Positions 10,941 through 64,000 of a stretch of 64,000 nucleotides of DNA are shown one piece after another. Each line of letters opens with the position of its first letter. Position 1 is the first letter of the stretch. Below the pieces are notes generated by a model that was given only the letters and a program-made list of their open reading frames with translations, did not search any database and was not told the origin of the DNA. The DNA comes from an uncultured Porphyromonadaceae bacterium (lineage in GTDB: Bacteria > Bacteroidota > Bacteroidia > Bacteroidales > Muribaculaceae), in contig CAMWLC010000005.1 in the NCBI GenBank assembly GCA_947174995.1, positions 18,122 through 82,121 of the forward strand. Direction: 5' to 3'. The position numbers and the translations under genes are program-made.

Positions 10941-12266
10941 TTAACGGCGTCCGCCTCGTCCGCCACCACCACCGGAGCTACGTCCGCCTCCGCTTGAACG
11001 GCCTCCACCTCCCATTGAGCGTGAACCGCTGCCGCTGTTAAAGGAACCGCTGTTGAAGGAGTTTCTGTTGCTGTTAGTCCGCGTGGTACCGTTGTTGTAG
11101 GTGGTGCCGCTTGAGCGATGGTTATTGGTGCTTCCGCCGTCGTAGCTGTTACCGCTATTGTATGTGCTGCCGCTTGAGCGGTGATTGTTGGTGCCTCCAC
11201 TGTTGTAGCTGCCCGAACCGTTCTGATTGCGACTCGGATTGGCGTTGGTGAGACCGGTGCTATTGGAGTTGCCGCTGCGGCGATGTCCGTCAGACTGCAC
11301 TGTGCGGTTGATCGTGCCTCCGTTGAATCCTCCGAGCTGACTGCCCACACGGTTGCCTGAGGTGACCCCTGTGCGTGTGCCGTTCAGATCCACGCCATGC
11401 TGACGGTGGTGGTTGGTGGTGCCGACCGCCGAACCGTGATTGCTGTTCGCGGGTGCCGAAAGACCGGGACGCGTCGAGCCGGTGTAGCGGTGCGAACCGC
11501 CGTAGCCGTTGGTGATATGGCCCGGACGCGTGTTGGCAGACCATCCCTTGTTGGGACCGACGGGGCCACGTCCGCCGGGACGCCTCCAGTCAGTGCCGGG
11601 ACGATAAGCCCACGAGGGACCCCAATCCCACGATGGGCCCCATCCCCATGACGGCCCCCATGAGGGTCCCCATGCCCAACAGGGGCCCCAGCCCCATGAC
11701 CAGCCACCCCAGCCCCAGGAAAGACCCCAGCTCCAGGAGGGGCCCCAACTCCATGACGGCCCCCAGGCGTATGACCAGTTCCATCCGCCCCAACCGAAGC
11801 CGTAAGAGGGACCCCAGTACGAGGGCCACCAGTCCATGTAGGCGTATGAGGGTGCGAAATATGGCGCTCCTTTAATGTTGAACTCTATGTTCACGTTGCC
11901 GTAGGCATTGTCGAGCACATCTTCAAGCACATCGGCATTGTCAACTACAATCGTTGGATTATAGAATTTCTGAATCTTCTGGGTATAGACGAAATCCTCG
12001 CCCCCCTCAGCGTAATTTCCTATGGTGTCGACGGGAGACGCGTAGTACTGTCCGCGAAGATTGTACTCATCCACATCCATGTTCTCGAAGTCCGCGATGT
12101 AATTGGACTTGCGGTTTTTCTTCGACGTTTGAGCGGGCTTGTCCTTATTCTTCTTGGGATTATAATAGAGATCATCCACATAATCGTCCGCGAGAATGCA
12201 GGGAGCCCCCAGAGTCAGGGCTATCGCCAGGAGTATGCCTCTTTGGGTATATTTGCTTCTCTTCAT
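10941..12266 (-). CDS. Secreted Trp/Gly-rich low-complexity protein
   Basis: 441 residues from ATG 12266 (MKRSKYTQRGILLAIALTLGAPCILADD, a signal peptide); the track start at 12293 is 9 codons earlier and non-canonical. Three parts are visible. Residues ~25-145 are acidic, with DDYVDDLYYNP. Residues ~150-235 are built on WGPSW/WGWG units, with 25 Trp in about 83 residues. A long Asn/Ser/Gly/Thr-rich tail ends in a Gly/Arg tract. The N-terminal part resembles secreted Bacteroidales hypothetical proteins. Function is unknown; a surface or matrix role is only a guess. Confidence 0.7.
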   Translation of the reverse strand: MKRSKYTQRGILLAIALTLGAPCILADDYVDDLYYNPKKNKDKPAQTSKKNRKSNYIADFENMDVDEYNLRGQYYASPVDTIGNYAEGGEDFVYTQKIQKFYNPTIVVDNADVLEDVLDNAYGNVNIEFNIKGAPYFAPSYAYMDWWPSYWGPSYGFGWGGWNWSYAWGPSWSWGPSWSWGLSWGWGGWSWGWGPCWAWGPSWGPSWGWGPSWDWGPSWAYRPGTDWRRPGGRGPVGPNKGWSANTRPGHITNGYGGSHRYTGSTRPGLSAPANSNHGSAVGTTNHHRQHGVDLNGTRTGVTSGNRVGSQLGGFNGGTINRTVQSDGHRRSGNSNSTGLTNANPSRNQNGSGSYNSGGTNNHRSSGSTYNSGNSYDGGSTNNHRSSGTTYNNGTTRTNSNRNSFNSGSFNSGSGSRSMGGGGRSSGGGRSSGGGGGRGGRR

Positions 12267-12298: not shown

Positions 12299-12493
12299 TA
12301 AGTGAGTGTTCAAATTTAATTTATACAATATGCGAGTTTATTTTTTAGTCGATTTCAGTGCGGAGAGAGGGAGCATAGCAAGCTATGCGACTGAGCGACA
12401 AGCTGAAAGCGGCAAAAAAGAAGCCGCAGATTGTATAAAAGATTCAGTGAGCACTTGCTTTTGATGTTATCGTATAATTTGAACACTTACTTA
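12299..12493. repeat. MITE-like intergenic element, copy A
   Basis: 195-bp element bounded by ~21-bp inverted ends (TAAGTGAGTGTTCAAATTTA on the left, near-complement on the right). Copy B (14605-14798) is the same sequence in reverse orientation with scattered substitutions, and copy C starts at 63947. Internal palindromes are GCATAGCaaGCTATGC (12373-12388) and GCGGC...GCCGC (12409-12427). The left end carries a minus-strand TAAATTTG -7 box (12311-12318) pointing at the tryptophan-rich gene 45 bases away. Confidence 0.85.
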
Positions 12494-12530
12494 TAATTTT
12501 GACAATCAGCAACGGAATTGGTTTAGAAAA

Positions 12531-12545
12531 ATTGACAGAGTCAAT
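12531..12545 (-). terminator. Terminator of the nadC-yraN-trmN6 operon
   Basis: ATTGAC/GTCAAT stem with a 3-base loop, followed on the minus strand by TTTTTCT; it lies 27 bases beyond the trmN6 stop. Confidence 0.6.
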
Positions 12546-12571
12546 ATTTTTTAACATTTTCCCCGCGAATG

Positions 12572-13324
12572 TCAAAATTTAAGATAGAATTCGCGGCATA
12601 ATGCGCGGTATTCATCTGCGGGGATTCCCGGAGCCTTTTCCAATATAAGTTTCTTTATCTCCGGACACGGGCCCCGACGCTCCGCTTCAAGCTCTGCGAT
12701 ACCTTCCCGCCCTACAATCGCAAGCGGCGTGGCCGTCACTACGATTCTTTTCACCGGAGCCTGCGAATGACCGCTGATTCTGACCACCGTCAGCACTTGC
12801 AGCCCCTCTCGGCAAGCGTGCTCCTTCACCTCTTCCTCGAACCACGACGGGCAGACAAAGCAAAGCCTCCCTCCGGGATTGAGAAGCCGACGGGCTTCGT
12901 GCAGCAATACGAAGGGCGAGAGCGAGGCTTGGTGTCTCGCCGCGAGTCTCGCGGAATCCGGAGATGTTATGCCGCTTCTGAAAAAGGGGGGATTGGAAAC
13001 TATCAGGTCATAACGCGAACTCTCTTCAGAGAAGTCAGCACACTCCGCCTCCAGGCGTGCGCCCCACGGAGATTTGAGGAAATTTTCACGCGCTTCGTTA
13101 ACGGAGGCCTCATCCGTGTCAATGGCACGGATACGCGCCCCCGGGGCACGCTGCGCCAGCATGAGGGCTATCACGCCGCATCCGCAACCTGCGTCAAGCA
13201 CGGTAGTGACACCCTCCACCGGAGCAAGCGCCCCGGTAAGCACGGCGTCCACACCTACCTTCATCGAGCTCATGTCGTGACTGACCTCGAAGTGCTTGAA
13301 ACGAAAAGGTCCGGATTTCTTCAT
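12572..13324 (-). CDS. trmN6: tRNA1(Val) adenine-37 N6-methyltransferase (TrmN6/YfiC family)
   Basis: 250 residues from ATG 13324, giving MKKSGPFRFKHFEVSHDMSSMKVGVDAVLTG, the family's usual N-terminus; the track start (TTG 13354) overlaps the upstream stop. SAM motif VLDAGCGCGVIALML and the catalytic N6-adenine motif NPPF (VSNPPFFRSG) are both present. It methylates A37 in tRNA1(Val) in E. coli; the target here is inferred from family. Last gene of the nadC operon, 26 bases after yraN. Confidence 0.88.
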   Translation of the reverse strand: MKKSGPFRFKHFEVSHDMSSMKVGVDAVLTGALAPVEGVTTVLDAGCGCGVIALMLAQRAPGARIRAIDTDEASVNEARENFLKSPWGARLEAECADFSEESSRYDLIVSNPPFFRSGITSPDSARLAARHQASLSPFVLLHEARRLLNPGGRLCFVCPSWFEEEVKEHACREGLQVLTVVRISGHSQAPVKRIVVTATPLAIVGREGIAELEAERRGPCPEIKKLILEKAPGIPADEYRALCREFYLKF

Positions 13325-13350
13325 TGCATCATTTTGTCTTGCACTCTGCG

Positions 13351-13743
13351 TCAATATCCCAAAGGAGGCAGGTACGCGTCCTGAAGATGTTCAAGGGTGT
13401 AATGGTGCTTGTTTCCCGTGATGGCTATGATGTCAAACCTGTATTCGTAAGGCTGGTCAAGACCTCTGAGATAACGGTCGGCGGCCTTTGAAATGCGCCG
13501 TTGTTTGGTAAGGTTAACCGCGCCGGCGGCATCCTCGCCTCCGGCGCCGCGGGCCTTGACCTCCACAAAGACAATGGTGCCCGGAATCTCGGCGATTATA
13601 TCCACTTCCAGCTTGGATGACTGCGGCGACCAATTGCGCTCCCTCACCACATAACCCTCCTTGACGAGATAATCGCGGGCAATCTCCTCGGCGAGCTTGC
13701 CCCACTCAGATTTCTCACCGCCTCCCGGGGAACAGCTGTTCAT
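13351..13743 (-). CDS. YraN family protein (UPF0102)
   Basis: 130 residues from ATG 13743, four bases after the nadC stop. The endonuclease-like fold motif of the family is visible: EWGKLAEEIARDYLVKEGY, then SKLEVDIIAEIPGTIVFVEVKAR, a PD-(D/E)XK-type core. Family members are predicted nucleases of unknown role. Tightly packed in the nadC-yraN-trmN6 operon. Confidence 0.88.
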   Translation of the reverse strand: MNSCSPGGGEKSEWGKLAEEIARDYLVKEGYVVRERNWSPQSSKLEVDIIAEIPGTIVFVEVKARGAGGEDAAGAVNLTKQRRISKAADRYLRGLDQPYEYRFDIIAITGNKHHYTLEHLQDAYLPPLGY

Positions 13744-13747
13744 AAGC

Positions 13748-14599
13748 TCAATAGGCCTTGAACGACATATCGAGACCCTTGACACTATGGGTCAACGCCC
13801 CAACGGAGATAAAATCCACTCCGGCCTCGCCATATTTGCGTAGATTTTCGAGGGTGATGCCTCCGGAAGACTCGGTCTCCATGCGGCCGTCCACGAGTTT
13901 CACCGCCTCGCGGGTGAGTTCGGGAGTGAAATTGTCAAACATGATCCGGTCCACGCCACCGATGGCGAGCACCCTGCGGATATCGTCGAGGCTTCTCACC
14001 TCCACCTCGATTTTCAGGTCTTCTTTTCCGTTGGCACGGCAGTATTCGCGCGCTCTTTCGATGGCCTTCTCGATACCTCCGGCGAAATCTATGTGGTTGT
14101 CCTTGATGAGGATCATGTCGTAGAGACCTATGCGATGGTTGGTGCCTCCACCGGTCTTGACACCCTCCTTCTCAAGCATTCTCATTCCCGGAGTGGTCTT
14201 GCGCGTGTCGAGCACGCGGGTGTGGAGACCCTCCAGCTCATCCTGGTAGCGGCGCGTCATGGTAGCCACGCCGCTCATGCGCTGCATTATATTGAGCATC
14301 GTGCGCTCCGCCACGAGCAGACTGCGCACGGGGCCTTCAGCCGTGAATGCGATGTCGCCCGGCTTCACATGGGCACCGTCCTCTATCATAACGGTCATCT
14401 TGATGGAGGGATCCACCTTGGCCAGCACCTTCCGTGCCACCTCTACGCCGGAGAGCACTCCCTCCTCCTTTATTATCAGTCGAGACCGCCCCATGGCGTC
14501 AGCCGGTATAGTGGAGAGCGTGGTGTGGTCGCCGTCGCCGAGGTCTTCGGCAAAAGCGAGGTCGAGCAGGTCGTCGATGAGTTCGTCTTTTGTCTTCAT
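13748..14599 (-). CDS. nadC: Nicotinate-nucleotide pyrophosphorylase (quinolinate phosphoribosyltransferase)
   Basis: 283 residues from ATG 14599 (MKTKDELIDDLLDLAFAEDLGDGDHTT). The track's longer start runs into repeat copy B and is rejected. Family motifs: RTMLNIMQRMSGVAT, DTRKTTPGMRMLEK, GGTNHRIGLYDMILIKDNH, and the phosphate-binding SSGGITLENL. It makes nicotinate mononucleotide from quinolinate and PRPP for NAD synthesis. First gene of its operon; the start codon is five bases from repeat copy B, whose end carries the only evident promoter. Confidence 0.96.
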   Translation of the reverse strand: MKTKDELIDDLLDLAFAEDLGDGDHTTLSTIPADAMGRSRLIIKEEGVLSGVEVARKVLAKVDPSIKMTVMIEDGAHVKPGDIAFTAEGPVRSLLVAERTMLNIMQRMSGVATMTRRYQDELEGLHTRVLDTRKTTPGMRMLEKEGVKTGGGTNHRIGLYDMILIKDNHIDFAGGIEKAIERAREYCRANGKEDLKIEVEVRSLDDIRRVLAIGGVDRIMFDNFTPELTREAVKLVDGRMETESSGGITLENLRKYGEAGVDFISVGALTHSVKGLDMSFKAY

Positions 14600-14604
14600 T
14601 TGAA

Positions 14605-14798
14605 TAAGTAAGCGTTCAAATTTAATCGATATCACCAAAAGCAAGTGTCTACTTAATCTTTTTAACAACCTGCGGCTTCTTTTTTGCCCTTTCAGCTTGT
14701 TGCTCAGTCGCATAGCCCGCTATGCGACTTCACTCCGCACCAAAATCGGCTAAAAAATAAGCACGCATATCGTATAAATTAAATTTGAACACTTACTT
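14605..14798. repeat. MITE-like intergenic element, copy B
   Basis: 194 bp, reverse orientation relative to copy A, with the same inverted ends and internal palindromes. Both ends carry an outward-facing TAAATTTG: 14617-14624 on the minus strand toward nadC and 14780-14787 on the plus strand toward rlmH. It fills most of the nadC-rlmH divergent gap; the remaining 123 bases to rlmH show nothing else recognisable. Confidence 0.88.
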
Positions 14799-14921
14799 AG
14801 GTCTTAATTTTCCGCGAAGATAGCAATTTTTATCCGCATCGCCAACATAAACGACAGATTTATCCGTTTTATAAGGAGAAATATTTTTACAAGGAGATAC
14901 TTTTCCCCAAACACCTGTTTC

Positions 14922-15395
14922 ATGGAAATCCAGTTGCTGACCGTCGGCAAGACATCCACTTCGTATATAATCGCCGGAATAGAGGAATACTGTCGGCGTC
15001 TCAAGCACTATGTGCCCTTTTCACTTGTCTCCCTTCCCGACATCAAAAATACGCGCAATCTCTCGGAGGATCGCCAGAAGCAGTCGGAGGGGGAGCTTAT
15101 ACTCGGCCACCTCTCCACGTCTGACCTCGTGGTACTTCTCGATGAGGCGGGACGCGAGTTCACCTCACGGGAATTTGCAGGATGGCTGGAGCGCGGCATG
15201 GCCACGGGACGCAAGCGGCTTGTCTTTGTGGTGGGAGGTCCGTATGGGTTCTCCAAGGCCGTGTATGACAGGGCCGACACCAAGATCTCCCTCTCGCGCA
15301 TGACTTTCAGCCACGAGATGGTGCGCCTCTTCTTCGTGGAGCAGGTCTACCGCGCCATGACAATCCTCCGGGGTGAGCCCTATCATCACGACTGA
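14922..15395 (+). CDS. rlmH: 23S rRNA pseudouridine-1915 N3-methyltransferase RlmH
   Basis: 157 residues, the full family length. SPOUT-class signatures: VLLDEAGREFTSREFAGWL, FVVGGPYGFS and the C-terminal knot SRMTFSHEMVRLFFVEQVYRAMTILRGEPYHHD. It methylates pseudouridine 1915 of 23S rRNA on the assembled ribosome. Transcription probably starts at the outward promoter in repeat copy B. Confidence 0.97.
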   Translation: MEIQLLTVGKTSTSYIIAGIEEYCRRLKHYVPFSLVSLPDIKNTRNLSEDRQKQSEGELILGHLSTSDLVVLLDEAGREFTSREFAGWLERGMATGRKRLVFVVGGPYGFSKAVYDRADTKISLSRMTFSHEMVRLFFVEQVYRAMTILRGEPYHHD

Positions 15396-63924: not shown

Positions 63925-63946
63925 TGTTTTGGAGATAAGTAGTTCT

Positions 63947-64000
63947 TAAGTAAGTGTTCAAATTTAAACGATATAATCAAAAGTAAGTGCTCACTTGATC
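63947..64000. repeat. MITE-like intergenic element, copy C (cut by window end)
   Basis: The first 54 bases (TAAGTAAGTGTTCAAATTTA then AACGATATAATCAAAAG) match the left end of copy B in the same orientation. The minus-strand TAAATTTG at 63959-63966 points at pyrB. Confidence 0.8.

Follow-up and report, generated by a model that had tools for sequence, protein, structure and literature searches.

A non-coding element of about 195 bp with inverted ends occurs three times in the 64,000-nucleotide stretch of DNA analyzed here (the window), in each case next to a gene. This raises the questions of what the element is, how it reached these sites, and whether its ends act on the neighboring genes. 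With a probability of roughly 90%, the element is an IS630/Tc1-mariner-type MITE, moved in trans by an IS630-family transposase. It also has a hairpin core and outward-facing promoter-like boxes, and both invite other explanations.

The original prediction described a three-copy inverted-repeat element (A, B in the opposite orientation, and C), and this element is real (Table 1). The predicted start of copy B is exact, while its end lies at 14799, one base beyond the predicted 14798. Copy C is incomplete because contig C5 itself ends inside it. The element, here called type 1, is 195-197 bp long, starts with TAAGTAAGTGTTCAAATTTAA and finishes with the inverse of TAAGTAAGTGTTCAAATTTAA. In copies A and B the terminal inverted repeats span 27 nt and are 89% complementary. 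As predicted, the element encodes nothing, and the sole notable open reading frame is that of nadC continuing upstream into copy B. This frame is open across 14600-14713 on the minus strand, with an ATG at 14713; if that ATG is used, NadC would gain 38 residues encoded by copy B. The glycine/tryptophan-rich protein beside copy A (10941-12266, minus strand) matched no Pfam family.

Table 1. Positions of the element copies, their parts and the adjoining genes (window coordinates unless a contig is given)
Feature	Position	Strand	Remarks
Copy A, full type 1 element	12299..12493	-	195 bp including both TA; reverse relative to copy B; locus L027
Copy A box TAnnTTTG, outward to tryptophan-rich gene	12311..12318	-	44 nt from start codon
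nadC, quinolinate phosphoribosyltransferase, adjoins copy B	13748..14599	-	Pfam PF01729, PF02749
Copy B, full type 1 element	14605..14799	+	195 bp; locus L001
Left terminal inverted repeat, copy B	14605..14631	+	
Copy B box TAnnTTTG, outward to nadC	14617..14624	-	17 nt from start codon
Conserved hairpin core of copy B	14669..14770	+	covariance model R1 (L001:1570-1671)
Right terminal inverted repeat, copy B	14773..14799	-	
Copy B box TAnnTTTG, outward to rlmH	14780..14787	+	134 nt upstream of start
Ancestral divergent -7 pair, remnant TATCTTCGCGGAAAATTA	14805..14822	-	one substitution per TTTG core relative to relatives, e.g. L199
rlmH, SPOUT methyltransferase, adjoins copy B	14922..15395	+	Pfam PF02590
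Type 2 element start TAAGTAGTTCT	63936..63946	+	host of nested copy C
Copy C, type 1 element, first 54 bp	63947..64000	+	cut at contig end
Copy C box TAnnTTTG, outward to pyrB	63959..63966	-	34 nt from start codon
32-bp palindromes, genome G000	C27:5194-5225, C3:63164-63195, C15:35979-36010, C2:50770-50801, C31:5593-5624		L073, L069, L076, L077, L078

Contig C5, to which the window belongs, is one of the 82 contigs of a 2.45 Mb genome. A survey of these contigs identified 30 full-length type 1 copies, and extra truncated copies are found at contig ends or at IS interruptions. The folding z-score of the element is about -7 relative to dinucleotide shuffles; together with the 30 full-length copies, this shows that the element is not a product of chance. 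Many type 1 copies are 100% identical though they lie at different sites, and the family has therefore moved recently. Copy B, the most diverged type 1 copy of the genome, thus probably inserted long ago. A second subfamily, type 2, has ends of the form TAAGTAGTTCT..., is present in about 20 full copies in this genome, and shares the core of type 1. The element family accounts for the recurrent assembly breaks in this genome.

Variants of the element were also observed. Each of the five 32-bp palindromes in Table 1 consists of two type 1 ends joined, with the interior absent, which fits loss of the hairpin by slippage between the AAATTT repeats of both ends. In another genome (G013; L086, L087, L088, L089, L090), elements with type 1-like ends come in sizes of about 61, 110, 156 and 233 bp, indicating that the interior hairpin comes and goes whereas the ends persist. 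At three loci (L010, L011, L030) the start codon of the following gene shares bases with the duplicated TA, and the entire leader of that gene is therefore element sequence.

Target sites and IS630-type ends

No direct repeats other than TA flank the copies. Two type 1 copies nested in type 2 copies provide related empty sites, and both show a 2-bp TA duplication. At the first (L014), the filled site reads CGA-TA-(element)-TA-TTTGTTTTA, whereas in L071, a type 2 copy with no insertion, the sequence is CGATACTTGTTTTA. At the second (L016), the filled site reads TTTTATG-TA-(element)-TA-TTCATTAATT, and its empty counterpart (L008) reads TTTTATGTATTCATTAATT. Copy C is nested as well, since the sequence flanking it opens a type 2 element, the other half of which is probably the beginning of contig C55. 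The TA duplication points to the IS630/Tc1-mariner type.

The spacing of its neighbors also fits an insertion of copy B. In 45 relatives that have no comparable element, nadC and rlmH are 26-170 bp apart (median 81), compared with 322 bp here. The relatives were identified through nadC among Muribaculaceae and other Bacteroidales, for the most part as metagenome-assembled genomes, and they are too diverged at this locus for a base-exact alignment of the empty site. One of the 45 (L191) contains a short remnant with inverted ends of the TAAGTAGCTG type between rlmH and nadC, seemingly a separate insertion event between this gene pair in another species.

Full IS630-family elements inspected in the genus are about 1.1 kb long and run from TAAGTA to TACTTA. 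Their ends resemble those of the MITE: 28 of 32 positions are identical between one element (L099) and type 2, and 25 of 32 between two others (L095, L098) and type 1. Shuffled controls averaged near 13 and reached at most 21-22 of 32. None of the IS630 elements seen has ends identical to type 1. DDE_3 transposases are present in 22 of 111 genomes of the genus, and the assembled contigs of this genome contain neither a DDE_3 match nor a complete transposase gene. Termini of the L095-type IS are nevertheless found at five contig ends, which places the IS in this genome and makes its absence from the contigs an effect of assembly. Two of these ends, on contigs C43 and C52, look like the halves of a single type 1 copy into which the IS inserted at a TA. 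A candidate parent in G013, a pair of type 1-like ends 1.8 kb apart (C69:8051-9830; L085, 752-2531) next to a type 2-like element, was rejected, as it encloses a gene that we take to be a MATE-type transporter and not a transposase.

The element is thus short and non-coding, has terminal inverted repeats and a target-site duplication, and is multicopy at unrelated sites. Its ends are homologous to those of IS630, and termini of a partner IS are found in the same genome. The original prediction of a non-autonomous element agrees with the multiple copies, the TA duplication, the IS630-like ends and the empty orthologous sites, and it had named a genome with these copies alone and no empty sites as the contrary outcome; many copies and empty sites are both present. 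In the proposed mechanism, an IS630-family transposase acting in trans would recognize the inverted ends (TAAGTAAGTGTTCAAATTTAA) and move the element, whereby the target TA would become duplicated. We infer that the transposase of this particular IS630 would be the one that moves the MITE.

A conserved hairpin core

An alignment of 33 cores, taken from the two subfamilies of this genome and from many congeners, folds into one hairpin of 27 pairs. The hairpin is imperfect, with conserved internal loops. Paired cells make up 93.7% of the alignment compared with 76.5% after shuffling, and 19 of the 27 pairs show double changes. The covariation score is 0.408 as opposed to 0.125, and sliding the partner by 1-3 columns brings it below 0.08. 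Sequence conservation is higher in the internal loops than in the covarying inner stem and tip. Pairing in the core is maintained by compensatory change.

A covariance model search found the core in 139 of 247 genomes of the family, covering 21 of 30 genera, and in 7 genomes outside the family in a sample of the order. The same search found it in 0 of 296 other genomes across the phylum. The cores of family f81 (L171, L172, L181) have unrelated ends. The weakest matches in the order (L178, L179; about 35 bits) may be due to chance, because reverse-strand matches to the palindrome score similarly. A single folded core with conserved loops thus recurs in most genera of this common gut family and on no fewer than four end types, which suggests that the core is under selection.

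MITEs are usually viewed as decayed copies of one transposon. The core may instead be a functional structured nucleic acid, either RNA or folded single-stranded DNA, within a mobile structured element conserved across Muribaculaceae and other Bacteroidales families on several end types; we put this forward tentatively, as the less probable side of the question. The likeliest readings of the hairpin interior are a DNA hairpin that would aid mobility and an RNA that would fold when the element is co-transcribed. In the stronger form of the RNA explanation, the core would be under selection as a folded transcript, such as a transcript-processing or regulatory hairpin, and the transposon ends would be mere carriers. 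This has some appeal given the strong covariation, the conserved loops, and the presence of the core on several end types and, in other families, between unrelated ends; we nevertheless consider it possible rather than probable, as a palindrome in double-stranded DNA gives identical pairing on either strand. There are few wobble pairs, and a strand bias among them, considered as a sign of RNA, lost its significance when distinct changes were counted or when new sequences were taken alone. A search of Rfam (Rfam 15) gave no match to the element at E values up to 1.

Outward -7 boxes and neighboring genes

The published Bacteroides -7 consensus is TAnnTTTG, and the median 5' UTR in Bacteroides is 32 nt (PMC7366714). 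An outward box of this form is carried by 58 of the 60 type 1 ends in this genome and by 1 of 22 type 2 ends. Since the type 1 inverted repeat itself includes the box, the box faces whichever gene comes next. The original prediction of gene-facing boxes holds for copies A, B and C, although copy A lacks an exact box at its outer end. Their distance from the start codons, predicted as 12-45 bases, measures 44, 17 and 34 nt for the tryptophan-rich gene, nadC and pyrB. The box toward rlmH does point at that gene, although at 134 nt it faces it only loosely. The box of copy C is directed toward pyrB with 11 nt of a type 2 element (TAAGTAGTTCT) in between. The predicted lack of a -33 box is confirmed, as no TTTG is found at the -33 spacing.

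The element might persist because its outward boxes drive neighboring genes, as reported for Correia elements. The frequency of boxes at type 1 ends suits this explanation, as do the box-to-start distances, which match short Bacteroides leaders (PMC7366714). We regard it as rather unlikely: the -33 box is absent, type 2 spreads equally well with almost no boxes, and placement is the same as at random TA sites. Start codons lie within 50 nt of 52% of copies compared with 45% of random intergenic TA sites (P=0.29), and many copies lie between co-directional genes. An apparent excess near start codons (P=0.0002) was due to poor gene calls (72% coding) and disappeared at 89% coding. The alignment with start codons seen in the window follows from the shortness of intergenic regions. 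A supply of promoters to housekeeping genes, as originally proposed, is therefore possible on account of the built-in box and the copy B locus, although the placement of copies is that of random TA sites.

One locus, nadC-rlmH, does speak for such an activity. Boxes between these genes are present in 41 of the 45 relatives in each direction (2.3 expected by shuffling), and only 3 lack both. In 12 relatives the boxes form an overlapping pair, e.g. TATCTTTGCGCAAAATTA. The pair beside copy B reads TATCTTCGCGGAAAATTA, with both TTTG cores broken. From this comparison, copy B may have replaced the native promoter, although the mutated boxes may still work. The case stands alone, no other locus having evolutionary support; a matched test of missing upstream boxes over the other copies gave a borderline P=0.05. 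The locus thus offers one concrete place where a mobile element may have taken over from a native promoter. The outward boxes of type 1 ends could serve as weak portable promoters, as we infer from their form, and transcription would then start just 3' of TAAATTTG at nadC, rlmH and pyrB.

An invertible promoter, in which a recombinase flips the segment between the inverted ends, has in its favor those ends and the inversion reported for Correia elements (review, PMC10969869), but it is very improbable, as most ends carry the same box, so that flipping would change little, and transposition accounts for the TA duplication and the dispersed copies.

Relation to known systems

The IS630-type MITE proposed here has counterparts in other bacteria. 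RUP (repeat unit of pneumococcus) is a 107-bp element of Streptococcus whose proposed mover is IS630-Spn1 (PMC2229807, PMC3049150). Like RUP, our element is small, non-coding and multicopy, with IS630-like inverted ends, a TA target and a tight fold with paired ends. Compared by description only, it differs from RUP in its length of 195 bp, its occurrence in Muribaculaceae, its outward -7 boxes, and a core found on multiple end types in different genera. The Correia element (NEMIS) of Neisseria is similar in its TA ends, long inverted repeats, size of about 100-200 bp, location near genes, promoter-like sequences and long stem-loop (PMC2229807, PMC10969869). However, sigma70-type promoters and an IHF site have been shown in Correia elements, whereas the boxes here are predicted, of the Bacteroides -7 type, and without -33 boxes. 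ERIC (RU-1) of enterobacteria shares the TA ends, extended hairpin and intergenic location, and differs in its 127-bp length, short inverted ends and RNase E-dependent effect (PMC2229807). MITEs of Porphyromonas gingivalis, such as BrickBuilt, come from the same order, Bacteroidales; set beside our element by description only, BrickBuilt contains a minisatellite (PMC4596501).

The open literature searched on MITEs in Muribaculaceae or in Bacteroidetes/Bacteroidales holds no description of this element. At the level of sequence, it has the features that define IS630-related MITEs, RUP among them. Its departure from the usual picture of MITEs is a conserved, covarying core carried on several end types across genera, and with it the question of how such cores are maintained becomes open to testing.
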